Origin: Accumulibacter sp.
GTDB lineage: Bacteria > Pseudomonadota > Gammaproteobacteria > Burkholderiales > Rhodocyclaceae
Assembly: GCA_024235695.1 (NCBI GenBank)
Contig: JACKLX010000006.1
Coordinates: 62,001 to 126,000, forward strand
Direction of reading: 5' to 3'
DNA length: 64,000 nt
Below the pieces are notes generated by a model that saw nothing but the letters and a program-made list of their open reading frames with translations, did not search any database and had not been told where the DNA came from. The position numbers and the translations under genes were made by a program. Positions 15,001 to 27,823 of the stretch are shown one piece after another. Each line of letters opens with the position of its first letter. Positions within the stretch are counted from its first letter, which is position 1.

Positions 15001-18000
15001 ACCACCTTCGACCCGAAGAGCCATGCGACAGGAAATTACCGCCTGGAGCTGGTAGCGACCAGGAAGGATGGACTGTCGTTCATCGATTCGTCGGTCTACA
15101 TCTACTCGAATCAGTTTCCCAGCGATTCGATTCGCCTACCCTTCGGTGCCCAGCCCTACGGCATCGCCATCGATCCGGGCGGGAAACACGCCTACGTGGC
15201 CGCGCAAAGCCCGTACCTGATCAAGGGCGTCGCGTCGTCTTACCTGTTCCAGATCGACATCGACCCGGCGTCGGTTAACTACAACAGGGTCGTTCAGAAC
15301 ATACGGGTGGGTGGGGAAGTGGCGCTTTCCGGCGTCGACCAGGGCAGCCAGCAAAGCTTCGCCAGTGCGTCCAAGGCGCCGTCTGGCCTGCGCAACGTCG
15401 CGGTTTCCGCCGACGGCCTGCACGTCTATGCGACCGCTCCGAACGAGAATACGGACCCGAACGGCGGCCATTCATGGACGAAACTGGCGGGTAATCTGGT
15501 CGATATCGATCTCAACAAGCTGAAGGCGGGTGATCCGGCCGCCATCACGTACATACCGGGCAGTCGCGAGACCTATGGCGTCGCCGTCACTCCGGGTCGC
15601 CAGGACGTTGGTTTCACCAATGCCGAGGCGGACGCCCTCGGCGTCTTCGTGACCAACTTCAGCGCTGGCCAGAAGCGGACCATCCCGCTCGACCTCGACA
15701 AGTTGGCGACCCGGCTCAACCCGCAACTCGCCGTTCACAACGCGAGCGGCATCGTGTTCACTCCCGACGGCAGCTACGCCTTCGTCGCCGCCCGCGCCGA
15801 CCAGGTGAACCAGGTTTTCGGCGGCGGATTCAACGGCGCCAGCCTCAATGCCAGCGGCGTCAGCGGTTATCTCGACCAGGCTGCCAATCCCCTCTACGAG
15901 GACGGCAACGTGGCGATCATCAAGGATCCGCTGAGTGACCATCCGCAGGTCGTGGCGGCAACACGACCGACGCCGCATGGTTTCCCGGTTGACCTGGCTC
16001 TGTCCGCCGACGGTCACTATCTGTACGTCAGCTACCAGGGGCTGCCGACGAGCGCTGGCTCGGGCGGCGTTTTCGTTTTCGACGCCAAGGCGATGATCCA
16101 GCAGGTCCAGTTGCAACTGGCGAAGGATCCGTCGGGCGCGGATATGCGCAAGTACGCCATCGATGACCTGCCGTTGGTCAATGGCAAGCGCACGGCGAAC
16201 GCCCAGATCGACGTGCGCGCCGACTATCTGCTGCATACCGACACCCTTGCCGACGGCAGTACGGTGACTGCCTTCGGAATCCCGGCGGGGAGCAACCGGC
16301 CGCCGGTGCTCACCGGCGGCTTTCCGGGCGGCATCGCGGTGCAGACGCGGTCGTATCCGCTGAGCGTTTACGACGCGTCGGGCGACAGCACGCCAGAAAC
16401 GGTGTTCCAGCATGGCGTCCTGAAAGTCAGCTTCGGCCTTCCGTCGTCGGGTCTTGCCGGTGTCGTGAAGAGCATACAGCTCAGGGCGAAACCGACCGCT
16501 GGCGGCGCCGATGTTCTCCTCAAGACCTACACCGGGCAGCAACTGCAGGTAAATGACGAACTCCTGAACCTCGATGCCCTGGTCGCAGGCCCGGCCGACG
16601 GCTTCTACAAGATCTACCTGCACATCGAGTTCGAGAATGGCGCGGCGGCGGAAGACGTCGGTTTCAAGTCGATGACCATCCAGGGTGACCGGTCCGTTTC
16701 TTCGGCGCCCAATGTCGCGTCAGATGGCATGATTCGCGGCTCGTTTGCGCCGCAGACCTATAATCTCTCTGACTACGTCAATGACGGTGTCGTCATCTTT
16801 GGCGGTGGTGGTACCGATACGCTGGCTCTCGGCGTGCTGCCTGCGCAGCTGACGAGCATCGACGGCAGGTCGCTTAGCGCTTTCAGCAGCGCCGCGAGTT
16901 CCGCGCCCAGTCAGGCGATCTACCGGGGAACGGCGTTTGACTACCTGTGTCTGGACAGCGGCCAGGAAATCTACTGCCAGGGCATCGAGCGACTGGTGTT
17001 CTCCGACGGAACGGTGAAGGAACTGCAGGTCCGTGCGACCGATCCTTTCTTCAATCAGCAATGGAATCTCGCCGCCACCGATATTCCGGACGCCTGGCGC
17101 TTCACGACCGGCTCCAGCCAGATCCTCATCGTGTCCATCGACAGCGGCCTCCCGGCCACGCCCGCGGCTGCCGACGATCTATTGCCGAGCCGACTGATCA
17201 CCAACTCGCAGTCGTACGTCGGCGGCGTGACCGACAACGTCCACGGCCACCAATCGATCAGCATCATGGCGTCGATCCCGCAGAACGCGCGGGGAGTTGC
17301 CGGCATCAATTGGGTCAGTCAGGTGATGATCCAGGATGTCGTCGAGCAGCCCGTCGTGAGCATGGACCAGGCGATCAAGGCGGGCCTCGACTTTGCCGTG
17401 GCAAATGGCATGAAGGTCGTTTTCCAGGCAAGCGTCGAGAGTGAAGCCGCAGCCGCACAGATCAGTGCCGTCACCGCTTTGCTCGGTGGCACAGATTCCT
17501 ACGCCCTTTATACCTACGCGGCCGGAAACCACGCTACCGACATCGATAACCCCGCCGGATCGCTTGGCGCATGGGCGCGCCTCTTTGGCGCGCAAAGCAA
17601 TGGTCTGGCGATTGGGGCAGTGATCTCCGGGACGGCCACCGTCTTCTCAAGTTCGCCAGCTTCATTCTTTACCACGTCGACGGGCGGTATCAACAACGCC
17701 ACCGCCATCAGCAGGGCGTCGTATTCAAACTTCGGCCCCAAACTTACCCTGGTCGCGCCGACGGATTCACCGGCAGTCAGGGGCGACGGCATTGTTCCGG
17801 TGGGCAACCCGCTGGCGAACCCGCCGCAAGCGCTTTACTTCAACGGAACCTCCGCCGCAACGCCAAATGTGGCAGGCATTGCCTCGCTGGTCTGGAGCGC
17901 CGCGCCGCAGCTTTCAGGCGCCGACCTGCGGCAGCTTCTGATCGACACGTCTAGCCCGCTTGTTGCCAGCAAGACCATCACGAACCTTGTCCTGAAAGCG

Positions 18001-19236
18001 GCGGTTCCGGACGCGACGACGACTTCGATCAGCGTTTCCGACGCGGCCTATACTCCGAACGGAAACACCTACCCACCACCGCAGCGCTGGGTGATCACGG
18101 TGGGTTCGGAAGACATGCTCGTCAGCGCGATGACACCCGTCGTCGGCGGTTCGACCTACACCGTGGTCCGCGGCTACAACGGCACTACGGCTGTCGCGCA
18201 CAGCAACGCCAGCAGCGTCGTCCGCTCCAATTATGACGGTGCGACCGCCAATGTCGGCAGCACGCCGGGAAGCGTTCGGGACGCGAGCTTCGGCTATGGT
18301 CTGATCGACGCTGGCACCGCCGTGCGTCGCGCTTTCGCCCTGACCAGCAATCCCGTTCTAGCCAATTTCTACCTCAACAACGGCACCAGGAATCTCGCCA
18401 TTGCCGACACCGGCACGGTGACCGTTCCAGGCGTCGGCGCAGACGTTCTGACGATGAACATGCTCGACGCCTCCGGCACCACTGCCCAGGCCGCTTTCGA
18501 CCTCTGGTCCAGCCGCCTGCAGGGCACCGCTTCGATGCAGATCGGCGTCAGCCTCGAAGACCTGCCGGACGGCCAACTCGGCGAGGCGCGCATCGATGCC
18601 GTCGGCGCAGACGGCCTGCCGACCGCCGGTACCATCGTCCTCGACCGCAACGCCAGCGGGGTCGGCTGGTTCGTCGATCCGACGCCGCTCGATAATTCGG
18701 AGTTCTCGACGACGCTCGATTCGACCGCCTTCCTGGCCAGCGGGGCTTCCGATGCCGCCGGCAAGTACGACCTGCTCACCGTTCTCCTGCACGAGGAAGG
18801 CCATCTGCTCGGATTCAACCCGCAGACGCCGGACTTTGCAGCCCGCGTTGGCACGGTCGCTGGCTCGCAGATCTTTGTCGGCCCGGGCTTCACGGCCCGC
18901 CTATCGGCGGACGGCCAGCATCTGACCAGCAGCAGTTACCCCGACGACCTGATGAACGATACCCTGGCGCCGTCGGTGCGGCGGCTGCCTTCGGCCAGGG
19001 ACGTGCAGATCGTGAATGCCATTCGTTCGCCGATCGTGGTTCCGTCTTTGCCGGATGTCGCCTTCCCGGATGCGGTGGCCACGGCGAACGATTCGATTCC
19101 AGTCGGTTACCGGAGGTCTTCTGTCTCTGCTCTCTTGCTTGCGGCCACGCAGACTTCCACGGCGGTCAACAGTGGTTTCTCGATCACCGGGGCAGGGGCG
19201 CGCAGCTTGGTTGGACGGAAAGCGGATCGGTGGTGA
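1..19236 (+). CDS. Giant multidomain secreted/surface protein, 5' partial, with subtilase domain
   Basis: The frame is open from base 1, so the true start lies upstream; 6411 residues fall inside the window. By nucleotide position the order is: the end of one CARDB-like unit, nine more CARDB-like units (about 283-3945, each with a W.D..YLS-type motif), an IPT/TIG-like segment (to about 4550), a propeller-like region (6580-7370), a Big_5-like domain, nine putative Ig repeats (8035-10625, motif D..SG...WTP), an Rhs-like segment (11200-11960), a dockerin-like pair of loops GDANQDGKVDG and ADANRDGTING (12370-12535), two BIG2-like units, a ZU5-like domain, an IPT/TIG, a YVTN-type propeller (14510-16300) and an S8 peptidase (17040-18310). 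The S8 residues are Asp 17140, His 17242 and Ser 17851 in NGTSAATP. A zincin-like HEEGHLLGF follows at 18790. Export is inferred. The frame ends abruptly at an apparent frameshift. Confidence 0.9.
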   Translation, partial: PTTVGAWVDSIIVSPDANANHGTVLKEFAHQGALVTGAGYSRSETFLLPPQFQTHSHLFVRSDAGDVVFENSVEANNVGEAVNLFDVTPIPYADLAVSAVSAPLSGASGQPIQISWTVTNQALHAIGTTNSGTWADSVYLASDAAGKNIVAGLGSFDHVGALAIGGSYTHTVSASLPDGLSGNFYVVVGTGGPHEFIYTDNNSAVSGPLAVAFSAPPDLLPSRLAATTPGSSAALTMARAGDKIDVSWNVQNAGSGDTRGEWLDRIVLKEVGGTRSFTLGAFNYATALQAGKFYARTEQLQLPSKVQGVFQLVLTTNAGLFPIFENGASGNNTLTDTQTLTLTVPPNPDVQVFSIDNAPATANAGGTVALDYTVINQGSVEARGHWTDNVYLSLKDHLDGSAIFLGSFDNQSALKPGDKYQGHSDNLAVPKRLGGPAYLIVYTNAGGALDEFPRGDNNTLVHSIYINPEPPADLVTSLVTAPNQTFDGTTIDVSYHVSNLGLENTDRANWTDTIWLTRDATRPNVTKGDVLLATLPHVGVLGNDPSIISPPVSYDVSTQVTLPKHIAGQFYITAWSDSFDVVLKSTQDVNVNPDDPGQLNNDNYKARPITVLLTPPPDLVVTVVTPQASAVGGDDFTVQWTVQNKGTSPTEDSVLFDQVYLSDKPLFVPPFGGRDVGNQWFLGSVEHDGVVATNGSYTAQRTFQLSPEISGKYVIVVANTGGIVIDPSKDPRFSVEVGTYFAPTWEGPYTDDNVAVAATHVTPLPPADLQVTSVVAQAPNYSGETTTIVWTVQNLGAAAWSGTRYWLDAVYFSRYPTLDASRDIFIGEFAHSNAQPLASGASYTQSADFVLPKGIGGTATDPQTFYVHVVADVRGTVNTRGRDNSGSRATFATVGYEDASNNRGTGTLPVIYREPDLQVTDLLVPAAAVHSGDIVPVTWTVTNLGNRDTREGNWTDRVFLSTDASLDSGDTQLGEISHSAILRTGDQYSTTLDVRLPDGIGGDFHVLVFTDATVRGTNGVPGVSGGTSMGSVPEFQGEGNNLTAAFMPVTLTPPPDLEVTALVALGPDPARAGHVLSGESFTVSYTVTNNGTGETPDRQAVWDDRIYLSRDPYLSDADVYFADDRHTGGLAAGASYSRSVTLKAPRNMTGPWYVFVLSDAPTSTSPRGLVFEGANEDNNATATATPLLIELPPPSDLVVDSISLPQSAMAGDAVHLSWAVSNVGVNAASGTWSDTAYLSADNTWDINDRAIGRFSFSGTLQPGGSYNASLDAKLPPATPGSYRVIVRSDIFDDILESQELNNTTTSADLLKVSVPELHLGVPLITTLDTGEDRLYQVTVGQGETLRVDLTSADPAAANVLFLRYDALPTASTYDAAYQQALQANQFTVIPSTTAGTYYVLIHGQSEPSAGTPITVLAHVLPFAITDVAPDKGGDSRYVTTTILGAQFDAQATVKLLRPGFAEYEPVSYQVIDKTRIIAVFDLRGAPHGLYDVKVINPNGDTAVAPYRYLIEQALPPDVSIALGGPRVVWAGQSGLYGFTLTSRTNVDIPYVEFQYGVPGLPLNEGVPYLGFTTNVSGAPDVANVPWAGVLPSANTDGQLLSTGYAIDFADRSNTTFSFLVQTYPNGLPPGAYSEQPGVTAFAFNIMGAATPLTRDEYVAQQSALAATLRANIIKDPGASSALRNLAADQTLWTGLYLEALVQAGLLRAVDEPPAVHDNALLVSLQAMLTAGILAGPAGQQIITNGNLVQFFDQVRTWYGEDQNKTTPYSTVKQDLVSPDDPTSYWSFDPPPASDFNLHQSAPTHYEGFYVYVPWANDWDFPTHPDAGDSDETHPENPNFLNVQAPNFAPFFTGTGRGGQAAVNGPLAFGSAQFVPQGQPEPYTIQFQNGANAAATVGQVRVVSQLDAGLDPRSFRLGDLQLGDLQVHIPSDVGSFQGDFDFTRSRGFILRVSAGIDIGSHTVTWLLQAIDPLTGEVVSDPARGLLPPDNAQGAGRGFVTYTAVPRDGLATGTQISAQARVLFNTTAPLDTAQITYTLDARAPTSTLTANPVVQGGSDYRVQWSAQDDNGGSGVKSVSVYVAEDGGDYAIWKSQSTTIAGIYNGRAGHSYQFLALATDNAGNQEQPAAGKPVPSDDSRANLGGLPTVAETSRDFGTPPAPSAQAAVNPLFVQAGQGIPASLSRSRLPEFQSVVSPFTGQVFASGFVQSGADIGPLAILILPDGSLLASGGAARNQLFRFDSDGGRAATPLATLAQPIYDMALDGSANFIWATTGGGPLLKLDATSGEIVAQFGDGLTQSLAIQPGSGLVYASSANGIEVFDPASGMFTHFSDIRVGSLAFAPDGTLWAATWPHNQAQVIQFSGTPVKPRLMLEFNADVDSLAFGLPGSPLEGLLFVSHTEESLAGAGSELTMVDLATLKTVVLASGGTRGDQLKAGADGRVFISQSHQIDVLNPVRPPHVARINPPADATVALPFTNVAVTFDEDMLAGSAADPNSVLNPDNYRLLGDSAGTVSIRAIAYDQASRTAVLSFAPLLADHYQLQVLTRLRGSSGLALAAPYSSGFTAISDLSAVLGLDFSLARSDRASGTVSFDVTLINHSQYRLLLPVVLQLTPLQHFEGEPLGNQGRAADGSWLIDLSGNLPASGILDPGQTTTGRTISVLGPDRHPVAFDPRVSGRLAGNHAPAFSSLPSATAAAGAAYIYQPVAADGDGDQLSYLLVRSPAGMVVDATTGLLSWTPSAASPEQATVVLQVYDSAGAYDTQSFTVAVDGVNRAPWFVAFPDQISGREGQLLQVPIAATDPEGDSLVYWTEHLPPGAVFDAAAHALIWTPDFHAAGTYSDVRFLVSDGLHTLSESTTLVIAPTPQPPSFAKPANFTGREGDPIQIQLRASDVHGAALSFSSDLLPPGAFLDPQSGMFHWTPDATQHGVFSVPISVSNGQASTSQTLAIVVLNVNAAPAFENLRDFQIPEGQQIQFRAQAFDADNPTWVAPDRAADGTLVRSEAGRASLSYVASGLPAGATFDPETLIFTWTPGYGDAGRHSLTITATDDGDGAGQPLSAVQTVSLTVLNVNRAPQVDFIANTHMDHDTRLRIPVQAVDADGDPLSLSLVGLPAFGQFVDHGDGTAELTFDPGRDDRGNYTLSLRAVDNGDGNGSAAVLSGSQSFVLTVDAANVPPHLAPISNKVALVGQALQFTIQAGDGDQEPLAFSAVGLPGNASITPAPAYGRAVVNWTPTTADIGNYTILVKVADGGNGDPAQSLSDQQTFTLAVRTSNQAPAWISSADPLAPAGQTLALPLLAVDADHDPLTYSAANLPVGAVLDPLAGILTWTPQLVQVGRYDNIVLTASDGNLATTRNMSITVTPVNEPPRFIPLPAQSGREGTLLQFTLGAADPNQDPLIFSASSALPAGAMLDAQSGRLQWTPDYQQAGNHVLDFAVTDPAGLTDSLAVLLQIDNVDRPPTLQVDNHGLVVGQPFSLQLTGADPDLATTLSYSANGLPAGATLDAASGRFVWTPGPSQTGDFAVQFTVSDGELVVTRPSVLRVTFDPVPPPVLIELTPSFPGVPGSPVVVHAAASSIAPIAGLTLAVDGQPLLLDAHGRATYVPAAPGHYAITATASDADGRGGTAASVLKVRDPNDQLPPLVSFDNLAAGSTLTSALDLRGTVSDSNLDTWVLDLAPLGSDRFTILASGDSSVSGVLSALDPGSLANGVYRLRLTASDISGRTTSTATVFDANTVSKPTRYQQADVDLSVSLGGTVVDLVRSYDSQQRDIAGTFGAGWRLVNRDSDIQTSVEPSGEESRGIYNPFQQGTRVYLTLPDGRRVGYTFAPEKHTLSGITYYTPAYQADAGVDYRLDSAGAVLIRGPKGFYDAQTGQAYDPASGQFDGPEYALAAPDGTVYQLSAANGVEQQVLPGGVRLTFTDDGITSSTGDAVHFVRDASGRVTEIIGPDGRRVVYAFDSLGNLTSFHDTSTQETSRYGYAANDAHLLILATSPSSKTGNAIAYGTSVNTTPVLADLGGPGQFYGTPYHGTLSAGASDLLSFNLRPLEIQSTLKGTVLVGVELRADAGSGLQPALPTIGGLTPLLQRSGNGSAFALFAVSDAGLDLIRITGIDAGTAGAYTLQLFVAGDANQDGKVDGLDSALVAHSLGSSSGQAAYVRGADANRDGTINGDDAQLLGSDFGFFAIGPPVAQSSAVLTHVDLPVSIDLTTLASDPAGDPLFFRIVGAQDGTATLAPGGRSVNFLPAVGFAGQGSFQFMADDGYGTSAVATVIVDVSAAPLINLDFEQRQPRLQLGVIGSWDATWDASVGDFVPTGPPPVITPVDFQFSVFGDFADQLGVPLPSSYLTFQSTDLSVAGVSSSGLLHAVNSGTTTLVVSSHGVEAATAVAIGIPQDTLGQYLYALGLNAYPGAVTLSSNGGSRQMQVFAEADTTLSMDLTDAAAGTRYFVNHPGVVTVSADGLITAVAEGSATLTVINGPAESLLPVRVVAPAATGPAVLGAAGGVVTSADGSYVAVPPGGLLADTPVSLTPATFAQLPQGVPDGFQFAAAFNLDVGDEVLAVPLQLHVRVDPSIPVGATVYFYQAGEYLNDDGTTQPIWWQVDSGEVGSDGLAHTHSRPFPGIKDKSQYLVAYPTVDIGRLQLQAALNQQLALTVALAGASGTLIGAVGILATLAVPSAPHAQPFRIQIVPQDGLPITTVSDFQINPGQVSNYATTITPPPTLPPTAPHITSVSVDLTKTDPATGELLHEVVLTGSHFTDSGQNPDELSVSFTMPGPLNSKKTTTVSPSAGSTANELHVTVPASIALGLAQIKVTRTDAHQSYKNGSVVYNFYPVDSNEATIDSEGTYVFVALPEGKYTPAGVEGDLAVLNGNPTLGELGDLIARIPLDSAEDNPFPRDVAITPDNTRAYVTLRGSGRVAVVDTVALQQINTNTAPPIASNKAITGPLHVDPDLFGLEITRATAIRATIDIANLASWTLSLLPLNGGSSMQLATGSGKVNSGVLTTFDPKSHATGNYRLELVATRKDGLSFIDSSVYIYSNQFPSDSIRLPFGAQPYGIAIDPGGKHAYVAAQSPYLIKGVASSYLFQIDIDPASVNYNRVVQNIRVGGEVALSGVDQGSQQSFASASKAPSGLRNVAVSADGLHVYATAPNENTDPNGGHSWTKLAGNLVDIDLNKLKAGDPAAITYIPGSRETYGVAVTPGRQDVGFTNAEADALGVFVTNFSAGQKRTIPLDLDKLATRLNPQLAVHNASGIVFTPDGSYAFVAARADQVNQVFGGGFNGASLNASGVSGYLDQAANPLYEDGNVAIIKDPLSDHPQVVAATRPTPHGFPVDLALSADGHYLYVSYQGLPTSAGSGGVFVFDAKAMIQQVQLQLAKDPSGADMRKYAIDDLPLVNGKRTANAQIDVRADYLLHTDTLADGSTVTAFGIPAGSNRPPVLTGGFPGGIAVQTRSYPLSVYDASGDSTPETVFQHGVLKVSFGLPSSGLAGVVKSIQLRAKPTAGGADVLLKTYTGQQLQVNDELLNLDALVAGPADGFYKIYLHIEFENGAAAEDVGFKSMTIQGDRSVSSAPNVASDGMIRGSFAPQTYNLSDYVNDGVVIFGGGGTDTLALGVLPAQLTSIDGRSLSAFSSAASSAPSQAIYRGTAFDYLCLDSGQEIYCQGIERLVFSDGTVKELQVRATDPFFNQQWNLAATDIPDAWRFTTGSSQILIVSIDSGLPATPAAADDLLPSRLITNSQSYVGGVTDNVHGHQSISIMASIPQNARGVAGINWVSQVMIQDVVEQPVVSMDQAIKAGLDFAVANGMKVVFQASVESEAAAAQISAVTALLGGTDSYALYTYAAGNHATDIDNPAGSLGAWARLFGAQSNGLAIGAVISGTATVFSSSPASFFTTSTGGINNATAISRASYSNFGPKLTLVAPTDSPAVRGDGIVPVGNPLANPPQALYFNGTSAATPNVAGIASLVWSAAPQLSGADLRQLLIDTSSPLVASKTITNLVLKAAVPDATTTSISVSDAAYTPNGNTYPPPQRWVITVGSEDMLVSAMTPVVGGSTYTVVRGYNGTTAVAHSNASSVVRSNYDGATANVGSTPGSVRDASFGYGLIDAGTAVRRAFALTSNPVLANFYLNNGTRNLAIADTGTVTVPGVGADVLTMNMLDASGTTAQAAFDLWSSRLQGTASMQIGVSLEDLPDGQLGEARIDAVGADGLPTAGTIVLDRNASGVGWFVDPTPLDNSEFSTTLDSTAFLASGASDAAGKYDLLTVLLHEEGHLLGFNPQTPDFAARVGTVAGSQIFVGPGFTARLSADGQHLTSSSYPDDLMNDTLAPSVRRLPSARDVQIVNAIRSPIVVPSLPDVAFPDAVATANDSIPVGYRRSSVSALLLAATQTSTAVNSGFSITGAGARSLVGRKADRW
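19192..19203 (+). other. Apparent -1 frameshift joining the two giant reading frames
   Basis: Upstream, frame 1 reads SGFSITGAG and then degenerates into RSLVGRKADRW before a TGA. Directly across the GC-rich string ggggcgcgcag, frame 3 reads AQLGWTESGSVV and runs on without interruption into the next module. Joining the two gives a continuous, sensible domain start. No X XXY YYZ slippery heptamer is visible, so loss of one base (mutation or sequencing error) is more likely than programmed frameshifting. Confidence 0.7.
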
Positions 19237-22200
19237 CCACCGCCAGCAGCGCAACGTTCAGCGAGAATCCGCTGGCCAACACCGGCTTGTCGCAAACGTT
19301 CATCGTTCCGGTTGGTGCCACGTCGCTGGAGTTCACCATCTCGGCCAGCGATTTCAGGGTCAACACCGACGGCAATCCGCCCGATGCCTTCGAGGCGGCC
19401 TTGCTCGACGCCAGCGGACGCCCGATCATCGGCGCGGCGACCGGACTCACCCTGACCGATGCGTTCCTGAATGTGCAGTCCCGCGGTGCCATCTTCTTCG
19501 GGCCGGGAGTCAGCGTCTCGGGAAGATCGGTCTCGGGTCAGCACGGGTCCCTGGCTTCGCCGATCACGGTGAGCGCGGACCTCGCTGGCGTGGCGGCGGG
19601 AACACAGGTCACGCTCTACTTCGACCTGCTCGGATTCGGCCCGTACGACAGTTCGCTGACCCTCGACGACCTGCAATTCGGCCTTGTCAACGGCAACCAC
19701 GCGCCGGTGGCGGTCGACGACCAGTTTGCGGTGATTGAAGACGTGGCGGCGGTGCTCGACGTGCTGGGCAACGACAGCGACGCCGAGCACAGCCCGCTGA
19801 GCGTGATGCTGGTCGCTGCGCCTGGCCACGGCACGGTGACGCAGCCTGCTGCTGGCGGCAACTTCACCTACACGCCGGCGGCGAACTACAACGGCGTAGA
19901 CGCGTTCACCTACCGGGTCAGCGACGGATTGCTCGATTCGCGCGTGGCGACCGTCAGCTTGAGCATCGGCGCGGTCAACGACGCCCCGCACGGCAGCAGT
20001 GGCCGTATCGTCACGCTGGCAGACACGCCTGCTGTGCTCACGGCCGGCGACTTCGCTTTCGCCGATCCCGACGACACGCCGGCGAACGCCTTCAAGGCGG
20101 TGATCATCGACAGCCTGCCGAAGGCCGGGACATTGAGCCTCAACAACGTCGTGCTGAGCGCTGGCGCCGTCGTCCAGGTCAGCGATATCGATGCCAACGC
20201 GCTGCTGTTCACTCCGGCAGCCAACGCCGGCGGCACCGGCTACGCGCAGCTCAGCTTCCGGGTGCAGGACGACGGCGGCACCGCCAACGGTGGTGTCGAT
20301 ACCGACCCGACAGCGAAGACGCTGAGCTTCGACGTTACCGCGGTCAACCACGCGCCGGTGGCGGTCGACGACCAGTTTGCGGTGATTGAAGACGTGGCGG
20401 CGGTGCTCGACGTGCTGGGCAACGACAGCGACGCCGAGCACAGCCCGCTGAGCGTGATGCTGGTCGCTGCGCCTGGCCACGGCACGGTGACGCAGCCTGC
20501 TGCTGGCGGCAACTTCACCTACACGCCGGCGGCGAACTACAACGGCGTAGACGCGTTCACCTACCGGGTCAGCGACGGATTGCTCGATTCGCGCGTGGCG
20601 ACCGTCAGCTTGAGCATCGGCGCGGTCAACGACGCCCCGCACGGCAGCAGTGGCCGTATCGTCACGCTGGCAGACACGCCTGCTGTGCTCACGGCCGGCG
20701 ACTTCGCTTTCGCCGATCCCGACGACACGCCGGCGAACGCCTTCAAGGCGGTGATCATCGACAGCCTGCCGAAGGCCGGGACATTGAGCCTCAACAACGT
20801 CGTGCTGAGCGCTGGCGCCGTCGTCCAGGTCAGCGATATCGATGCCAACGCGCTGCTGTTCACTCCGGCAGCCAACGCCGGCGGCACCGGCTACGCGCAG
20901 CTCAGCTTCCGGGTGCAGGACGACGGCGGCACCGCCAACGGTGGCGTCGATTCCGACCCGACAGCGAAGACGCTGAGCTTCGACGTTACCGCGGTCAACC
21001 ACGCGCCGGTGGCGGTCGACGACAGCGCCACGGTCGACGCGGGAGATTCAGTGCTGATTGACGTCCTGGCCAACGACAGCGACGCCGAACATCAATTGTT
21101 GACCCTGGCGGTGGTCAGCCAACCGCTGCACGGTACGGCGGTCATCGAGCGCGGGCAGGTGCGCTACACGCCGAGCGCTGGCAACTTCGCCGCCGACAGC
21201 TTCCGGTACGTGGTCGCCGACAGCGCCGGCGCCACCGCCACAGGCAACGTTCATGTGGCCGTTGGCGCCGGGCCAAACCACGCACCGACGCTGGACACGA
21301 TGGCCGACGCGAGCGTCAAGGAAGGAGAGATCCTGACCGTCTTGGCAAAGGCTCATGACGTCGATGGCGGCGACACGCTGCGTTATGCGCTGGACGCCCC
21401 CTTCGCGGCGGGAGCACGCATCGATCCGATCAGCGGCGTGATCAGTTGGCGAGCGACCGACGGCGACAATCACTATGGCTTCTCCGTTCGCGTCAACGAC
21501 TCGGCTGGTGCTTCGGCGACGCGCAGTTTCACGGTGAACGTAGTCAACGTCGCGCCGACGCTGACCGCCGGCGGTCTGCCGGTAGCGTACGCGGGCGAGC
21601 GCTTCACGCTGAACCTGGGCAGTGCCGACCCTGGCGACGACAGCATCCGCTACTGGCGAATCGACTGGGGTGACGGGCAGCTTATCGACTACGCGGGTAA
21701 CCCGCGTCAGCTTGTCCACCGCTACAACGGCGTTTTGGGGCCGCTGCAGATCCGGGCGATGGCCGCCGATGAGGATGGCAGCTATCTCGTCGAACCGCTG
21801 CAGGTCGTGGTCCTGCCGCGGCCGCTGCAACTTGGCTCTTTCGCTCGCGACGCCTCCAGCATCGCCGGCAGCGCCGGAGTCGGGCAGGACAGGAACACCG
21901 TCAGCCCATTGCCGGGTACGGCCGCACGAACAGCCGCGACGCCCCAGAACGTCCCGGCCGGTCCGCTGCCGGCTGTTGCCTCCGAGCCGATCGGGCTGAG
22001 GGCGGACGTGTCGTTCGGAAGTCTTCCGCAGATCGACTTTCAGCCGCGGCCGGCGGGTTTCCGGTTGCCCGTGCGGCATCTGCGCGGCGAGCCTGGCGAG
22101 CGCGGCGCGCGCGGTGCGCGCGACGACTGGCGGCAGTCGTTCGTGACCGATTTGGCGAGGAAATCGACCAACCCGAACAACGACTTGCGGGTAATGCCCG

Positions 22201-22538
22201 GACCTTCGCTACAATCCCCGGTGACACCTGAACAGCTTCCTGAAGACGTGCCAGAGGGTACGCAGGACGGCATGACAAACCGCCGCGCGCAGCACGGGCA
22301 GGGAGGCGTGCTGGCAGGCGGTGTGCAGGCTGCGCAAGAGGGCACGCAAGAGCGCACTCGGGAAGGTGCCGAGGACGGCAAGAGCGACGTCATGCCGGAC
22401 CAGTTGCTGCTGGTGCTGCCGCTGGCACCGTGCGAAGCGGTATTTTTCAGGAGCATTCTAGGGAGAACAACGTGGCAGACGAAAAAGTCGAAACCCCGGC
22501 ACCGGCTGCCGGCGACGAGGCACAGCGCATCCGGATGA
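19230..22538 (+). CDS. C-terminal part of the giant protein (frameshifted continuation)
   Basis: The first possible start is GTG 19230, which overlaps the upstream stop. There is no signal peptide and no convincing ribosome site, so this is best read as the displaced C-terminus of the preceding gene. Modules are: a 'DAFEAALLDASG' domain (19255-19690), two nearly identical copies of a cadherin/tandem-95-like pair of domains beginning NHAPVAVDD (19695-20996), a third diverged tandem-95 unit (to about 21270), a cadherin-like unit and a PKD-like unit ending near 21815. The stretch DWRQSFVTDLAR then NPNNDLRVMPG at 22125-22200 looks like a natural C-terminus. The roughly 110 residues after it look non-coding and overlap the next gene by 67 bases, so the true stop may have been lost. 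Confidence 0.7.
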   Translation: MVTTASSATFSENPLANTGLSQTFIVPVGATSLEFTISASDFRVNTDGNPPDAFEAALLDASGRPIIGAATGLTLTDAFLNVQSRGAIFFGPGVSVSGRSVSGQHGSLASPITVSADLAGVAAGTQVTLYFDLLGFGPYDSSLTLDDLQFGLVNGNHAPVAVDDQFAVIEDVAAVLDVLGNDSDAEHSPLSVMLVAAPGHGTVTQPAAGGNFTYTPAANYNGVDAFTYRVSDGLLDSRVATVSLSIGAVNDAPHGSSGRIVTLADTPAVLTAGDFAFADPDDTPANAFKAVIIDSLPKAGTLSLNNVVLSAGAVVQVSDIDANALLFTPAANAGGTGYAQLSFRVQDDGGTANGGVDTDPTAKTLSFDVTAVNHAPVAVDDQFAVIEDVAAVLDVLGNDSDAEHSPLSVMLVAAPGHGTVTQPAAGGNFTYTPAANYNGVDAFTYRVSDGLLDSRVATVSLSIGAVNDAPHGSSGRIVTLADTPAVLTAGDFAFADPDDTPANAFKAVIIDSLPKAGTLSLNNVVLSAGAVVQVSDIDANALLFTPAANAGGTGYAQLSFRVQDDGGTANGGVDSDPTAKTLSFDVTAVNHAPVAVDDSATVDAGDSVLIDVLANDSDAEHQLLTLAVVSQPLHGTAVIERGQVRYTPSAGNFAADSFRYVVADSAGATATGNVHVAVGAGPNHAPTLDTMADASVKEGEILTVLAKAHDVDGGDTLRYALDAPFAAGARIDPISGVISWRATDGDNHYGFSVRVNDSAGASATRSFTVNVVNVAPTLTAGGLPVAYAGERFTLNLGSADPGDDSIRYWRIDWGDGQLIDYAGNPRQLVHRYNGVLGPLQIRAMAADEDGSYLVEPLQVVVLPRPLQLGSFARDASSIAGSAGVGQDRNTVSPLPGTAARTAATPQNVPAGPLPAVASEPIGLRADVSFGSLPQIDFQPRPAGFRLPVRHLRGEPGERGARGARDDWRQSFVTDLARKSTNPNNDLRVMPGPSLQSPVTPEQLPEDVPEGTQDGMTNRRAQHGQGGVLAGGVQAAQEGTQERTREGAEDGKSDVMPDQLLLVLPLAPCEAVFFRSILGRTTWQTKKSKPRHRLPATRHSASG
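19695..20996 (+). repeat. 651-bp tandem duplication inside the giant gene
   Basis: Copy 1 is 19695-20345 and copy 2 is 20346-20996, exactly 217 codons each. By eye they differ at only two bases near the end (GGT/GGC, and ACC/TCC changing Thr to Ser in GGVDTDP/GGVDSDP). Synonymous positions are identical elsewhere, so the duplication or gene conversion is recent. A third, diverged unit with the same NHAPVAVDD opening begins at 20997. Confidence 0.95.
22185..22215 (+). promoter_or_regulatory. Possible sigma70-type promoter for the export locus
   Basis: TTGCGG at 22185-22190 and TACAAT at 22210-22215 are separated by 19 bases. They lie inside the doubtful 3' tail of the giant gene, about 255 bases before the DUF3467 start. 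The spacing is long, so this is only a candidate. Confidence 0.25.
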
Positions 22539-22768
22539 ACACTGCGTCGGTGAAGAGCAGCTACTGCAACATGGTCAATGTGACGACGACGCGCGAGGAG
22601 GTGGTGATGAACTTCGGCGTCAATGAGAGCTGGGATCGCGCCGCGGCGGAGTACGATGTTCGTCTGGAGCATCGCATCGTGATGAGTCCGTTCGCTGCCA
22701 AGCGCCTGGCGACGATGCTTGGCAAGCTGGTAGACGAGTACCAAGGGCGTTACGGCGAGCTGAAGTAG
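22472..22768 (+). CDS. DUF3467-family protein
   Basis: This is a 98-residue cytoplasmic protein beginning at GTG 22472, chosen because AGGGAG sits six bases upstream. It has an acidic, Pro/Ala-rich N-terminus (MADEKVETPAPAAG) followed by a compact domain: 'SYCNMVNVTTTREEVVMNFG', a central Ala/Glu segment, then 'RIVMSPFAAKRLATMLGKLV'. That layout matches the DUF3467 family, whose function is unknown. It lies between the giant protein gene and the SecA/HlyD genes on the same strand, so a role in the same export process is possible but not shown. Confidence 0.8.
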   Translation: MADEKVETPAPAAGDEAQRIRMNTASVKSSYCNMVNVTTTREEVVMNFGVNESWDRAAAEYDVRLEHRIVMSPFAAKRLATMLGKLVDEYQGRYGELK

Positions 22769-22899
22769 GGCCAGGCGCTCCGCCGGCGACGCGGTCGTCT
22801 CACCGTGCAGTGGCCGGCGCGCCCTTGGCGTGCTTCCCGTTCTGCTCGTTCTTCTCGTCCCCGTCCGTTCCCTCGCGCACCAGATACTGAGTCCCGCAC

Positions 22900-23382
22900 G
22901 TGAGTTCAAGCTCGTATTCCTCGAGTCCGCAGCGCGCCGGCGTGCTGCCGGGAGTCGGCGTGCCGATCGTCGAGCACGACCGCGGCACGACCTTCGTCGC
23001 GGCGGTACGCAGCGCGCCCAAGCAGGTGCGGCCGCAGGACCCGCCATGCCCTTTGGTGACGAGGGGCGACGCCACGATCGCCGACCGCCGGCAGCGGACC
23101 TGTCCGGCACGCTTGATCCGCGCGCTGCCCGGCACGCACGAGCGGCTGCCGGGCAAGGCGCAGGCGGTTCGCAGCGGCGGCAGACAAGCCACCGATGCGT
23201 GCGACCCGGCGGGACTGAGGACACTGCGACGGTTGTTTCAGTCCGACCGCGAATTCCCCGGGGGGCTTGCTCCGGTGTACCTCGGGACGCCCGTCCTGAT
23301 GCGCTTTCGGCACCGCTCGGAGGCGCTTGCACAGTGGCGGCGACGTTTGCGCCAGCGCTTCCTGTCGCGCTTCGATGTCTAG
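22900..23382 (+). CDS. Short protein resembling the C-terminal tail of M50-peptidase/HlyD hybrid adaptors
   Basis: This frame has about 160 codons with strong G/C third-position bias, so it is probably coding. Its end overlaps the next start (ATGTCTAG), suggesting translational coupling. The C-terminal half, 'GGRQATDACDPAGLRTL..LFQSDREFPGG' then 'VYLGTPVLMRFRH' and a final 'RRLRQRFLSRFDV', resembles the end of proteins that fuse a site-2-type M50 peptidase to a HlyD-like barrel. The membrane peptidase part is absent: only 131 bases separate it from DUF3467, with a TGA in frame at about 22886. It is therefore either a remnant or a freestanding barrel domain. The GTG start at 22900 has no clear ribosome site. 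The family match is from memory of the pattern and needs a profile search. Confidence 0.5.
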   Translation: MSSSSYSSSPQRAGVLPGVGVPIVEHDRGTTFVAAVRSAPKQVRPQDPPCPLVTRGDATIADRRQRTCPARLIRALPGTHERLPGKAQAVRSGGRQATDACDPAGLRTLRRLFQSDREFPGGLAPVYLGTPVLMRFRHRSEALAQWRRRLRQRFLSRFDV

Positions 23383-25384
23383 GGCATTGCTCGAGAGCTG
23401 GCGGGTGGACGAGTTGGCCAGCGGCCTCTACGCCGAGCGGCGTGACCTCAAGGACAGTCGGGTCGATCGCTTGATCGCTCGCCTGATCGGCCGCTGGGGG
23501 CGCGGCGGGCTGCCGTTGCGCCTGCGGCGCCTGCGCCGCTTCGCCGATCGCGTCGAGGCGCTGGCCGGCGATCTCGGCAGCCTCGATACGGAACAGTTGC
23601 GGCAACGGGCGGCGGCGTTGCGTGCAACGCTGACGGTTGCCGGGCCGACCGACGCCGCGGCCGCCGAAAGCTTCGCGCTGGTGCGCGAAGTTTGCTCGCG
23701 GCAGCTCGGACTGCGTCACTACCCGGTCCAGCTGATCGGTGGCTACGCGATGCTGCGCGGCGCACTGGCCGAGATGCAAACCGGCGAAGGCAAAACGCTG
23801 ACCGCAGTGTTGCCGGCGGTAACCGTTGCGCTGGCCGGTGCGCCGGTGCATGTGATCACGGTGAACGCCTATCTGGCGGCGCGCGACGCCGAGTATCTGA
23901 CGCCGGTCTACGCCTTCTTCGGCCTGCGTGTCGGGCTGGTCGTTCCCGACCAGGAGAGCGCGCAGCGCGTCGAGTCCTACGGCGCCGACGTCACCTACTG
24001 CGTCAACAAGGACCTGGTTTTCGACTACCTGCGCGATCGCATCACGCAGAAGCGGGTCCGGGCGCGTACTCGTGCGCTGCTCGATGGCTGGCTGGCGGGC
24101 GGGCGCCAGCCGACGAAGCCGGCCGCGCTGTTGCGCGGACTGTATTTCGCCATCGTCGACGAGGCCGACAGCGTCCTGATCGACGAGGCGCGAACGCCGC
24201 TGATCATCGCCAGCGACGTCGATGACGCCAACGGACGGGCGCTCTACGAGCAGGCACTGGCGCTTGCCGGCAGCCTGTTGAGCAGGGAGCACTACCGGCT
24301 GCGGCCGAACGAGCGGAGCATCGAACTGACCGACGCCGGACGGGCGGCGGTCGCCGAGTTCTCGGCGGGTCTGGCGGGCCTGTGGAACATCGCGCGCGCC
24401 CGCGAGGAACTGCTCGAGCAGGCCTTGTCGGCGCTGCACCTGTTCCAGCGCGATCGGCACTACATCATTGCTGACGACAAGGTGCAGATCGTGGACGAGT
24501 ATACCGGTCGGGTGATGGCCGATCGCTCCTGGGAGCGCGGTCTGCACCAGATGATCGAGGTCAAGGAGCAGCTCGAGATCAGCAAGCGGCGCGACACCAT
24601 CTCGCGCATCACCTATCAGCGTTTCTTTCGACGCTACCTGTGCCTGGCCGGGATGACCGGCACGGCCGTCGAGGTGGCGCCCGAGATGCGCTCGGTGTTT
24701 GCCATGGACGTCGTCCGGATACCCCCGAATCGACCGTCGGTGCGCCGCGACCTCGGCCAGCGCGTCTTTCTCGACGGGCCACGGCGCTGGGCGGCGGTGG
24801 TCGAGCGGGCCAGGGAAATGCGCGCCGCCGGCCGCGCGCTGCTGATCGGCACGCGTTCGGTGGCGGCGTCGGAGGCGGCCAGCCTATCCTTGACGGCTGC
24901 CGGTCTGCCGCATGAAATACTCAACGCCCGTCAGGATCAGCGCGAGGCCGAGATCATCTCCCAGGCCGGCCAGCCGGGCCGCATCACGGTGGCGACCAAC
25001 ATGGCCGGACGCGGCACCGACATCCTCTTGAGTCCCGAAGTGCGACAGGCGGGCGGCCTGCACGTGATCCTTTCCGAATTCCACGATGCCGCGCGCATCG
25101 ATCGCCAGCTGTTCGGTCGCGCCGGTCGTCAGGGCGATCCCGGGTCGTGCGAAGCGATCGTTTCACTTGATGACGAGTTGTTTCTCGCCCATGCTTCACG
25201 CTGGCTCGGCTGGCTGCGCGGGCGGGTTTCGCCGGCAGGCGTTCTGCCGGCGCATCTCGGCCGTTTGCTGCGACAGTCGGCGCAAGCGGCGGCCGAGCGG
25301 CAGCACTCGCGGATTCGTCAGCTGACGGTGGAAATGGACAAGCGCATGCAACAGTCTCTGGCCTTTGCCGGAAGAGGAGAGTAG
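23375..25384 (+). CDS. Shortened SecA-like translocase ATPase (accessory SecA paralogue)
   Basis: A 669-residue protein. ATG 23375 overlaps the upstream stop. The motor is intact: Walker A MQTGEGKTL, VITVNAYLA, the DEAD box VDEADSVLIDEARTPLII, GMTGTA, TNMAGRGTDI and FGRAGRQGDPGS. E. coli SecA is 901 residues; here only about 80 residues follow the RGRAGRQGDPG-type motif. The helical wing domain, the two-helix finger and the Zn/SecB-binding tail are therefore missing, and only a stub of the scaffold helix (ending RIRQLTVEMDKRMQQ) remains. It is unlikely to be the housekeeping SecA. Its place between an M50/HlyD-like fragment and a HlyD adaptor suggests a specialised export role, possibly for the giant protein. 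Confidence 0.9.
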   Translation: MSRALLESWRVDELASGLYAERRDLKDSRVDRLIARLIGRWGRGGLPLRLRRLRRFADRVEALAGDLGSLDTEQLRQRAAALRATLTVAGPTDAAAAESFALVREVCSRQLGLRHYPVQLIGGYAMLRGALAEMQTGEGKTLTAVLPAVTVALAGAPVHVITVNAYLAARDAEYLTPVYAFFGLRVGLVVPDQESAQRVESYGADVTYCVNKDLVFDYLRDRITQKRVRARTRALLDGWLAGGRQPTKPAALLRGLYFAIVDEADSVLIDEARTPLIIASDVDDANGRALYEQALALAGSLLSREHYRLRPNERSIELTDAGRAAVAEFSAGLAGLWNIARAREELLEQALSALHLFQRDRHYIIADDKVQIVDEYTGRVMADRSWERGLHQMIEVKEQLEISKRRDTISRITYQRFFRRYLCLAGMTGTAVEVAPEMRSVFAMDVVRIPPNRPSVRRDLGQRVFLDGPRRWAAVVERAREMRAAGRALLIGTRSVAASEAASLSLTAAGLPHEILNARQDQREAEIISQAGQPGRITVATNMAGRGTDILLSPEVRQAGGLHVILSEFHDAARIDRQLFGRAGRQGDPGSCEAIVSLDDELFLAHASRWLGWLRGRVSPAGVLPAHLGRLLRQSAQAAAERQHSRIRQLTVEMDKRMQQSLAFAGRGE

Positions 25385-25387
25385 CGA

Positions 25388-26293
25388 ATGACGAGTCGGA
25401 TGGTGGCGGCGGTGCGCGGCGCTGTCGCGCTGGCGCTGGCGTCGGCGGGCACGGGCTTCGCTGGCGAGTTCGATTGCATCATCGAACCCAGCAAGACGGT
25501 CGATGTGCGGGCGGCGAGCGAAGGCCTGATCGAGAAGATCTGGGTTGACCGGGGCGACATGGTCAAGAAGGATCAGGTGCTGGTGACCCTGGATTCGGGA
25601 GTCGAACGCGCGGCGGCCGAATCGGCGCGCTATCGCGCGACGATGCAGGGCAAGATCAGGACCGGCCAGAGCCGCGTCGAGTTTTCGACGACCAAGTACA
25701 AGCGCCGCGAACAACTGGCCAGCCAGTCGTTCATCTCGCTGAGCGACCGCGACGAGGCCCTGACCGAAAAACAGCTCGCCGAGTCGGAGTTGCTCGAGGC
25801 GAGGGATGAACGCCGCCTGGCGGAAATCGAGCACCGACGCTTGTCCGAGCAGCTGCGGCTGCGAACGATCAAGAGCCCGGTCGACGGCGTGGTCGTCGAC
25901 CGCCTGCTCAACGCCGGCGAACTCGCCGATAACCGTGACCTGCGCAAGCCGATCCTCCGGCTGGCCGACATCGGCACGCTGCACGTCGAGGTGCTGATGC
26001 CGATCGAGGCCTTCGGCAAGCTGTCCCCTGGCCAGAGGGTCGAGGTCTTGCCCGAGGCGCCGGTCGGCGGTCGCTATACGGCGACGGTGACGGTCATCGA
26101 CCGTGTGCTTGATGCCGCCAGCGGCACTTTCGGCGTTCGCCTGGAGCTGGCCAATCCAGCGCTGAAGCTGCCCGCCGGCATCAAGTGCCGGGCCAGCTTT
26201 CCGGCGGTCACCGGCCGCGGGGCGACGCCGGCGGCGAGCGCCCCGCGGCCGGTCCAGAAACCGGCGCCGGTGCCGTCCGGCAAACCGATGTAG
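25388..26293 (+). CDS. HlyD/RND-type periplasmic adaptor (membrane fusion protein)
   Basis: A 301-residue protein starting three bases after the secA-like stop, with a GGAAGAGGAGAG ribosome site inside that gene, so the two are co-translated. It has a cleavable signal peptide (residues 1-25, ending TGFAG). A biotinyl-lipoyl half-motif follows ('ASEGLIEKIWVDRGDMVKKDQVL'-like region, residues 37-62), then a short alpha-hairpin (about 75-150), the second lipoyl half ('TIKSPVDGVVVDRLLNAGE') and a beta-barrel ending near residue 275. A Pro/Ala-rich tail closes it. Such adaptors bridge an inner-membrane motor or transporter and an outer-membrane channel. No RND pump, ABC exporter or TolC-like gene lies nearby. 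Confidence 0.85.
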   Translation: MTSRMVAAVRGAVALALASAGTGFAGEFDCIIEPSKTVDVRAASEGLIEKIWVDRGDMVKKDQVLVTLDSGVERAAAESARYRATMQGKIRTGQSRVEFSTTKYKRREQLASQSFISLSDRDEALTEKQLAESELLEARDERRLAEIEHRRLSEQLRLRTIKSPVDGVVVDRLLNAGELADNRDLRKPILRLADIGTLHVEVLMPIEAFGKLSPGQRVEVLPEAPVGGRYTATVTVIDRVLDAASGTFGVRLELANPALKLPAGIKCRASFPAVTGRGATPAASAPRPVQKPAPVPSGKPM

Positions 26294-26442
26294 CGCCGGC
26301 AGGCGACGAAGGCGACGGCAATGCGATGTTCGCGCTTGTGCCTGCCTGCCAGGCCGATGTATGGTGATTGCGAGTGTGGCGTCGAGCGGTGCTTTGCGTC
26401 GCCGGAACGTCGCCCAGGCGACCTTTCGCGAAGGAGTGATGA

Positions 26443-27189
26443 ATGACCAAGCCGCCGATGCCACCGCCGGAACGCAAGCCCGTCGCGGCCAGACGACCGG
26501 CCGGCAAGCCGTCGTCGGCCGCCGCGCCCAGGGGCACGGGCAGCGCCTCTGGCGTGGTCGATCAAGTACGCAGCATGGCCGGCAAGCTGCTTGACGTCAG
26601 TTCGGCGGCCGCCGTTGCCGGGCGAACGCTCGATGCCGCCAGCAAGGTCTCGCGGGCGCTGTGGGACGGCCAGGCGATCGAGGCCGCTGCCGAGGTGCTG
26701 CGCGTGGTCTTGCCAAGTGCCGCGGAATCGGCCGCCTGGACGAAGACCGGTGCCGCGATCCGTGCCATGCGCGAGTCTGCCGGCCTGACGATTGCCGAAG
26801 TCGGCGCCGCGATCGACCTCAAGGATCCGTCGCTGATCGAGGCACTGGAGAACGGCCGGGTGGCGCTGTCGTTCGAGCTGATCCTGCGCCTGGCGGCGGT
26901 CTTCGGGCGCAAGGATCCGATCGGTTTCGTGATGAGCCTGACGCGCACCGCCAATCCCGAGCTGTGGAAGAGTCTTGAAGCGCTCGGAGTCGGCAAGCTG
27001 GTGCTGCAATCGGTTCGCGAACACCAGTTCGTCAACGTCTATCGCAGCAACGACGCGGCGCGGGGTTTGAGTGACGAGGAATTCGCCGAGATTCTGAGCT
27101 TCACGCAGGTGGCGTTCGAGATGGCGATGGCCCAGCGCGAACGCTACCGGGGCCGCCGTAACAGGACGGCGGCGGGCAAGCAAGGTTGA
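26443..27189 (+). CDS. XRE-family helix-turn-helix protein
   Basis: A 248-residue protein with a good ribosome site (AAGGAG seven bases before ATG). Residues 1-35 are rich in Pro, Lys, Arg and Ala. Residues 35-95 are an Ala-rich helical segment (RSMAGKLLDVSSAAAVAG). A typical XRE/Cro helix-turn-helix follows at about 103-165 (IRAMRESAGLTIAEVGAAID ... ALENGRVALSFELILRLAAV). A helical C-terminus ends in a basic tail. It follows the adaptor gene by 149 bases on the same strand and could regulate the locus. The disordered basic N-terminus is unusual for a simple repressor. Confidence 0.75.
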   Translation: MTKPPMPPPERKPVAARRPAGKPSSAAAPRGTGSASGVVDQVRSMAGKLLDVSSAAAVAGRTLDAASKVSRALWDGQAIEAAAEVLRVVLPSAAESAAWTKTGAAIRAMRESAGLTIAEVGAAIDLKDPSLIEALENGRVALSFELILRLAAVFGRKDPIGFVMSLTRTANPELWKSLEALGVGKLVLQSVREHQFVNVYRSNDAARGLSDEEFAEILSFTQVAFEMAMAQRERYRGRRNRTAAGKQG

Positions 27190-27262
27190 CTCCCGACGCG
27201 CGGCAAAGACGCGTCTCGTCCGTGTGCGCGTCGGCGGTGATCGCCGGCAAGCGGGCCGCGGC

Positions 27263-27291
27263 TTGCACGATGGCGCCATTTCTGCTATTTA
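27263..27291 (+). promoter_or_regulatory. Probable dksA promoter
   Basis: TTGCAC (27263-27268) and TATTTA (27286-27291) are spaced 17 bases apart, about 37 bases before the dksA ATG. A T-rich stretch follows. Assigned from consensus match and position only. Confidence 0.4.
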
Positions 27292-27328
27292 GTCGTCTCT
27301 TTTTTCTTGCAAACCAAGGTCTTCGAAA

Positions 27329-27754: not shown

Positions 27755-27823
27755 TTGGCCGGTCTTCCGGGCAGGCGAGCGCGCGCCGCGCGACGGTATC
27801 GGTTTCGGCTCGCGGAGGACAAG

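Follow-up and report, generated by a model that had tools for sequence, protein, structure and literature searches.

Type I secretion is carried out by HlyB-HlyD-TolC assemblies, with LapBCE serving giant adhesins, and accessory Sec systems comprise SecA2-only forms as well as SecA2-SecY2 systems for serine-rich adhesins; the parts of SecA that work on SecY are the wing domain and the two-helix finger. Kamneva, Poudel and Ward (2015; PMC4452313) described a secondary SecA_DEAD locus that also contains M50/HlyD, HlyD and GAF/HlyD genes and sometimes an OEP gene, and in their main text suggested that SecA acts as the ATPase of a system resembling type I secretion, with M50 perhaps forming its pore. 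The words giant, LEPR, cadherin and PqqD do not occur in that main text, which, as far as it goes, names no substrate for the locus. PqqD-like domains are described as binding peptide leaders (PMC12710340, PMC7470986), and a published Vibrio giant of ~8000 amino acids (aa) is described as having LEPR-XLL and RTX parts. The present analysis concerns a related locus in 64,000 nucleotides of an Accumulibacter sp. genome (3.83 Mb in 32 contigs; assembly GCA_024235695.1, contig JACKLX010000006.1, here C6), where a giant surface protein gene is followed by genes for a short SecA ATPase and a HlyD-type adaptor. This whole stretch, C6:62001-126000, is referred to as the window.

Taken together, the results make it rather likely that the locus is dedicated to exporting and processing giant surface proteins that bear an N-terminal LEPR-XLL tag, with the genes in the window probably forming its downstream half. 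The initial annotation of this DNA had already proposed an export role for these genes but regarded their composition as matching no characterised system; that part has to be withdrawn, since the composition, as far as the main text of PMC4452313 describes it, was published in 2015.

The argument begins with the distribution of the tag. Proteins adjoining the locus are matched by the NCBIfam LEPR-XLL model NF012209 (short name LEPR-8K), and 323 genomes of the class were searched alike for the tag and for M50/HlyD. At the curated cut-off of 17 bits, both were present in 35 genomes, M50/HlyD only in 11, the tag only in 12 and neither in 265 (p=4.6e-27); at a stricter level of 22 bits the corresponding numbers were 25, 21, 2 and 275 (p=1.6e-22), both p-values being inflated by kinship among the genomes. 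By hand count, 13 families (f59, f64, f73, f74, f75, f87, f93, f116, f133, f142, f149, f153 and f161) hold both a genome with tag and M50/HlyD (the latter at no less than 500 bits) and a genome with neither, and counting the diverged sister type of M50/HlyD adds five more (f56, f113, f124, f127 and f170). By hand-picked positions, no fewer than 16 of the 35 genomes with both have tag and M50/HlyD within 15 kb of each other. The co-occurrence of export genes and giant proteins that the initial annotation had suggested looking for is found for M50/HlyD and LEPR-XLL tags, which are strongly associated and often neighbours.

A wider view is offered by the best 80 of at least 471 M50/HlyD candidates from a scan of genome contigs (the named loci), which span Pseudomonadota, Desulfobacteraceae and their kin, Nitrospira, Rokubacteria and Omnitrophota. 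In 40 genomes chosen by the author from these loci, tags over the cut-off were found in 30, including Alphaproteobacteria, Desulfobacteraceae, Nitrospira and Omnitrophota, in frames of up to 15,167 aa; judged by identical hit positions, the genome of L123 is also G357 of the class sample, so that the two tag counts overlap. The genome of L118, Methylobacterium oryzihabitans, has both the operon and a LEPR-XLL tag; for the same genus, Kamneva et al. report the operon in M. extorquens AM1. In 21 of the 42 named loci with enough flank, the operon is preceded by a plus-strand open reading frame (ORF) of 1200 aa or more, which in 17 of these ends within 1 kb of it, and most giants run past the locus end, their tags falling outside. 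In a matched control covering 20 author-chosen genomes out of 28 with M50/HlyD at no less than 500 bits, ORFs of at least 1500 aa occurred near 8 of 20 M50/HlyD loci but near none of the 20 canonical secA loci in those genomes; for ORFs of at least 1200 aa the numbers were 11 and 0. This comparison rejects chance as the cause of the giant neighbours. The cluster is conserved and often adjoins giants, and the initial annotation stands on a point at which it had offered to be refuted.

The genome under study contains five tags over the cut-off; the frames of four, among them the giant in the window, measure 9,505 to 12,593 aa. The ORF of the giant in the window begins upstream, spanning C6:52836-81236 (9466 aa), with a tag near its start (C6:53055, 34.6 bits against the cut-off of 17); a 12,177-aa tagged ORF, C6:11197-47730, lies before the window, just upstream of the GAF/HlyD gene. 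Including the latter, further LEPR-XLL giants with frames of ~12,200-12,600 aa are located at C6:11197-47730, C18:37355 and C24:38657. Because several such giants are present in one genome, a single export locus may serve several of them.

The inner-membrane partner, the absence of which had been noted in the initial annotation, is encoded outside the window: intact GAF/HlyD and M50/HlyD genes lie upstream on the same contig, and the idea of a missing partner is rejected. The giant gene sits between this pair and secA, and the operon is split here, with GAF/HlyD and M50/HlyD before the giant and DUF3467, SecA, HlyD and XRE genes after it. As in the locus of Kamneva et al., a SecA_DEAD protein without wing or scaffold is encoded together with M50/HlyD and GAF/HlyD on one contig; the genes do not form the one contiguous operon of that locus, which the relatives do have, and the arrangement here is a rearranged secondary SecA_DEAD locus rather than a canonical one.

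The small gene between DUF3467 and secA is explained by the same pair. Its product has no match at E ≤ 1 in Pfam or NCBIfam profile searches. Residues 1-22 are identical at 17 of 22 positions to the start of the genome's own GAF/HlyD protein, its C-terminal ~100 residues match the same part of the own M50/HlyD protein, and it shares 55% identity over 102 residues with the corresponding protein of L034. At the DNA level, window 22601-22965 is 76% identical to C6:47793-48157, around the GAF/HlyD start, and window 23064-23382 is 79% identical to the end of the own M50/HlyD gene. At this place relatives carry full-length GAF/HlyD (621 aa in G011 and G017) and M50/HlyD (~715 aa), and the gene is a deletion scar, most simply explained as a second GAF-M50 copy whose middle was lost. 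The resemblance to the end of an M50/HlyD hybrid pointed out earlier was correct, as the last ~100 residues indicate, although the gene is a scar and, on this evidence, not a working component; a functional small M50/HlyD-tail protein is rejected, since its two ends match different intact genes.

The short SecA contains NBD1, the preprotein-binding domain, NBD2 and one long helix, with the P-loop_SecA match falling into two stretches; Pfam gave no match for a wing or scaffold domain at E ≤ 1. Its best match among solved structures is SecA2 structure 6t4h, to which it aligns only as far as residue 608 of 781. We take 6t4h to be the SecA2 of C. difficile. The predicted structure (mean predicted local distance difference test score, pLDDT, of 82.7) ends after one long helix, 626-664. 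Judged from alignment and model, the protein keeps the ATPase and the preprotein-binding domain, the wing domain, two-helix finger and C-tail being absent, in line with the view that it lacks parts for standard SecYEG work. All 24 short SecA proteins compared have the TGEGK of Walker A and the DEAD box unchanged, and the protein scores under the cut-offs of all four NCBIfam SecA2 models that it matches. In a tree of 59 SecA proteins, obtained by a quick method and rooted at the midpoint, a single branch (support 100) sets 30 short sequences apart from 29 canonical ones. The ratio of nonsynonymous to synonymous substitution rates (dN/dS, Nei-Gojobori, reference relative G017 unless G011 is named) is 0.16 for SecA and 0.18 against G011, compared with 0.14 for HlyD, 0.08 for DUF3467, and 0.17 each for M50/HlyD and GAF/HlyD. 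Decay without purifying selection, the other finding by which the export proposal was to fall, therefore does not apply, and a decayed housekeeping copy is rejected by the support-100 branch and the low dN/dS.

Within the genus, short SecA occurs in 16 of 27 relatives with 74-82% identity (partial in G023, at a contig end). In G016, a single-contig genome (L046, L047), two short-SecA genes are present, each 75% identical to the SecA of the window and each adjoined by M50/HlyD and HlyD, while in L059 (G030) a SecA-like match lies inside a 1419-aa ORF at 10036-14295. The C-terminal tail is conserved near window residues 660-669, with the consensus LAFSGRxE, which is possibly a docking motif.

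M50/HlyD, in turn, combines features of a leader-binding protein, a protease and an adaptor. The G011 protein has an N-terminal PqqD-like domain (Pfam 29.1 bits, cut-off 23.4), and the M50/HlyD profile matches PqqD of PDB entry 3g2b with E=1.7e-5 over profile positions 18-102. In an AlphaFold model of the L069 protein, built with 28 sequences (mean pLDDT 85), three strands and three helices at the N-terminus (block pLDDT 60-87) are followed by long helices and then by barrel and hairpin, and the C-terminal adaptor part is MacA/MexA-like in fold. HExxH is kept in 12 of 12, 28 of 28 and, in a further 20-locus set, 20 of 20 proteins, and a second motif of the membrane part (NxxPxxxxDG-type; NPLLRYDG-type in type I, the query type as opposed to the sister type) in 18 of 20 proteins of this last set. 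The NCBIfam model for daptide intramembrane metalloproteases, NF041824, is matched with 151.1 bits (cut-off 300). The sister type is the only M50/HlyD in 18 of the 46 M50/HlyD genomes, at 191-382 bits; in several of its loci M50/HlyD is accompanied by OEP, HlyD and GAF/HlyD genes (identities tested with Pfam in L167 and in part in L175 and L177), and in L167, L168 and L170 the adjoining protein is tagged LEPR-x-MFD. L167-L186 except L183 are loci of this type, with no short SecA except in L181 (G114, one of the 18, with a very diverged SecA). There, a 571-aa SecA-like protein (5599-7314) adjoins the sister-type M50/HlyD, with a tyrosinase-domain gene beside it, and the G114 genome has no tag over the cut-off.

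The tag itself is short and N-terminal, with the consensus F-E-x-L-E-P-R-x-L-L-S-A-D. Among 30 tags read from DNA, including the poorer-fitting L151 and L159, counts were 30 for E1 and R3, 26 for L0, L5 and E-2, 25 for P2, 24 for A8, 20 for S7 and 19 for D9, the central letters being partly circular because tags were selected by pattern or by NF012209. Up to 60 residues preceding the tag carry a net charge of -1 to +12 and are mostly basic, and their highest 12-residue Kyte-Doolittle mean is 1.62, meaning that by hydropathy alone no strong hydrophobic core is seen.

Several results weigh against this reading of the locus. Twelve genomes carry a tag over the cut-off without M50/HlyD, those of G249 and G126 being strong, and a second M50/HlyD search in the twelve gave one weak partial match of 26 bits; conversely, 11 M50/HlyD genomes have no tag over the cut-off, and the M50/HlyD search scored only three candidates per genome. 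One of 14 control genomes also yields a match above the cut-off of the tag model, so some lone tags near 17 bits are noise. As regards leader recognition and cleavage, the 50 Foldseek matches listed are all adaptor or efflux structures and include no PqqD or site-2 protease; the type I protein tested scores 18.0 against the Peptidase_M50 cut-off of 27.2 (sister type: L167 above it with 39.8, L175 below it with 25.6); two sister-type proteins tested had no Pfam match to a PqqD domain; and in the further 20-locus set 8 of 20 profile matches begin no earlier than position 63, which leaves out most of the PqqD-like domain, one of them, L170, lying 187 bases from a tag. This genome's locus has no TolC gene, ABC-ATPase-like ORFs occur in 5 of the 80 named loci, and in G010 (L050, same genus, single contig) the short SecA has two stops. 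The HlyD gene adjoining that broken copy is open.

The main result against the initial annotation's proposal that SecA supplies the energy comes from genomes without it. At a threshold of E ≤ 1e-30, short SecA was found in 23 of the 46 M50/HlyD genomes and not in the other 23. Tags over the cut-off occur in 19 of the 23 genomes with it, in 16 of the 23 without it and in 12 of 277 genomes without M50/HlyD, SecA-less M50/HlyD genomes differing from the last group with p=4e-14. Among genomes with M50/HlyD at no less than 500 bits, six yielded no short SecA, some copies perhaps being hidden by contig breaks. Because 16 of the 23 SecA-less M50/HlyD genomes have tags, a motor role of SecA is not general: SecA as universal motor is contradicted, and SecA is not indispensable. 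At 22 bits, tags are found in 17 of 23 genomes with short SecA versus 8 of 23 without (p=0.017), and strong tags are thus commoner with SecA. Short SecA is a common but not obligatory part, and M50/HlyD is the more constant core.

The mechanism that these observations bring to mind would run as follows. The LEPR-XLL leader would divert the giant from ordinary signal-peptide handling, and M50/HlyD, located in the inner membrane, would bind it through its PqqD-like domain in the cytoplasm, much as PqqD-like domains do with peptides. Short SecA, where present, might keep the chain unfolded and feed it by ATP hydrolysis, after which the M50 intramembrane zinc protease would cut near LLSA-D. The HlyD parts of M50/HlyD, GAF/HlyD and HlyD, together with a TolC-family channel whose gene may lie nearby or elsewhere, would form the periplasmic conduit. 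Export, the motor function of SecA and the conduit are inferred from gene content, and leader recognition and cleavage by M50/HlyD from the PqqD-like domain, the protease motifs and the short N-terminal tag. The full scheme, in which the tag is read by the PqqD-like domain and cut off by the protease, the chain threads through HlyD and TolC, and SecA is a bolt-on motor in one branch, most of the sister branch doing without a dedicated one, is put forward tentatively, with odds somewhat below even; confidence in leader reading was slightly reduced because the PqqD-like domain is undetected in part of the sister type.

Among the alternatives, giants crossing the inner membrane via ordinary SecA/SecYEG, with the locus acting only afterwards, has the best claim, although we consider it doubtful. 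M50/HlyD would then trim or retain the giants, HlyD and TolC would pass them out, and short SecA would be an accessory chaperone or unrelated. The tagged M50/HlyD genomes without a found short SecA (16 of 23) need another motor, and this genome does encode a second, full-length SecA (947-aa frame); yet the 30 tagged leaders lack a strong hydrophobic core (maximum 12-residue mean 1.62), short SecA adjoins M50/HlyD in 72 of 75 named loci and is under constraint, and tags at 22 bits are commoner where it is present (17/23 vs 8/23, p=0.017), all of which counts against this alternative.

That the locus has some other job, such as envelope sensing or efflux, and that LEPR-XLL giants merely share its large-genome hosts, appears improbable. 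The GAF domain would suit such a function, DUF3467 and XRE proteins leave room for it, and GGDEF/EAL genes adjoin the operon in L059 (G030) and in L183 (G230; 3021-6146), a hint of cyclic di-GMP (c-di-GMP) control. Shared hosts alone, however, would leave unexplained the close spacing of tag and M50/HlyD (within 15 kb in no fewer than 16 of the 35 genomes with both), their joint variation in 13 families and the large ORFs near 8 of 20 M50/HlyD loci but 0 of 20 controls. Even less credible is a locus decaying in this genome, its function lost: against the scar, the frame change near 19230, the split operon and the broken short SecA of G010 stand the open SecA, HlyD, DUF3467, GAF/HlyD and M50/HlyD genes with dN/dS of 0.08-0.18 against G017, the intact GAF/HlyD and M50/HlyD pair 33 kb off, and the chance that the frame change is an assembly error. 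Export and processing of tagged giants thus stays the preferred reading.

The features of the locus are collected in Table 1. The five genes that the initial annotation had placed on one strand after the giant gene are indeed found there. In the giant gene, the 9466-aa ORF stops at 19236 and a 1102-aa ORF takes over within 19200-19260; because a single uninterrupted ORF of relative G017 (L034) spans both pieces, with 79% and 72% identity, the second is regarded as the giant's continuation, and the switch may be a real frameshift or an assembly error. The last 8 bases of the scar gene also belong to secA, and 3 bases lie between the secA stop and the hlyD start; the HlyD adaptor also matches RND_mfp with 123.2 bits (NCBIfam cut-off 94.9). 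The XRE protein is probably a regulator; of the 17 relative loci L033-L049, some of them truncated at contig ends, 5 have a match to it downstream. As stated earlier, the stretch is without RND, ABC exporter or TolC genes: no RND or TolC match was obtained among its Pfam-tested genes and no ORF with an ABC signature in a motif search of window 19001-30000. OEP genes elsewhere in the genome account for 12 matches in 6 ORFs. Downstream, 27329-27754 presumably encodes a DksA/TraR-like zinc-finger protein and 27878-30010 polynucleotide phosphorylase, which we take to be ordinary genes.

Table 1. Genes of the proposed export locus and its giant neighbour (window positions, or contig positions where marked C6)
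Feature	Position	Strand	Details
Intact GAF/HlyD gene	C6:48092-49957		Same contig, 33-37 kb upstream of secA
Intact M50/HlyD gene	C6:49970-52117		Pair lies 10-14 kb before the window
Giant multi-repeat protein, C-terminal two thirds	70..19236	+	ORF begins upstream of the window
Giant's last part, other reading frame	19230..22538	+	1102 aa; Big_9/cadherin-like repeats
DUF3467 protein	22472..22768	+	98 aa, GTG start; Pfam PF11950, 68.8 bits
Scar gene	22900..23382	+	GAF/HlyD start fused to M50/HlyD end
Short SecA ATPase	23375..25384	+	669 aa; SecA_DEAD 327.8, SecA_PP_bind 96.3, P-loop_SecA 161.9 bits
HlyD-type periplasmic adaptor	25388..26293	+	301 aa; HlyD_D23 69.8 bits
XRE-type helix-turn-helix protein	26443..27189	+	248 aa; HTH_3 37.6 bits

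In the named loci, where relatives' genes are longest-ORF picks and only loci with enough flank are counted, M50/HlyD has GAF/HlyD as a neighbour in 72 of 74 and short SecA in 72 of 75 (a share biased upwards, these loci being the closest matches to the type I query); for HlyD the figure is 50 of 64, and DUF3467 precedes the operon in 29 of 66. Home-made profiles, with which the counts may be low, detected OEP/TolC genes at 15 of the 80 named loci and at 8 of the 20 in the further set; in relative G041, OEP, HlyD and an RTX protein are grouped by the locus. ABC-ATPase-like ORFs were sought by two short motifs only, the LSGG signature and Walker A, and an ABC motor is conceivable in the five loci that have them. 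They include L139 (14257-15318, directly behind SecA), L112 and L120 and are not regular partners; a partial ABC-like ORF end in L055 (1-2813), too short for the motif search, was seen by eye.

The locus is probably a widespread, barely studied bacterial machine for short-tagged giants, and its analysis joins three questions, namely how proteins of 5,000-15,000 residues are exported, what the LEPR-XLL tag does and what secondary SecA proteins do in Gram-negative bacteria. The tag gains a candidate reader and protease, and M50/HlyD is marked as the more constant part. If the proposal is true, the leader-recognition logic of small peptide natural products would serve the largest proteins of bacteria. 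A literature search, mostly outside subscription journals, found no link between LEPR-XLL and this locus; the composition was already known, and, as far as the searches reach, the substrate link and the more constant core are new.

Compared with the secondary SecA_DEAD locus, as far as the main text of its description goes, SecA_DEAD without wing or scaffold, M50/HlyD, GAF/HlyD, HlyD and the occasional OEP are shared. What differs here is the tie to LEPR-XLL giants, the interpretation of M50 as a protease that recognises leaders instead of a pore, and the sister type, most loci of which lack SecA. Type I secretion likewise involves HlyD adaptors, a TolC-family channel, which is encoded in some loci here, and very large repeat-rich substrates; however, the signal is C-terminal there and N-terminal here, and a SecA-like ATPase and an M50 protease replace the ABC motor, of which there is no regular partner, and the locus is not classed here as a type I secretion system. 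With SecA2-based accessory Sec systems it has in common a second SecA, possibly for large surface proteins, but the short SecA has no helical wing domain or two-helix finger with which to act on SecY, and it is linked to HlyD proteins. Leader processing of ribosomally synthesised and post-translationally modified peptides (NF041824) shows the same succession of a PqqD-like domain and an M50 HExxH protease, from which M50/HlyD differs in its C-terminal HlyD adaptor part and in candidate substrates thousands of residues long.

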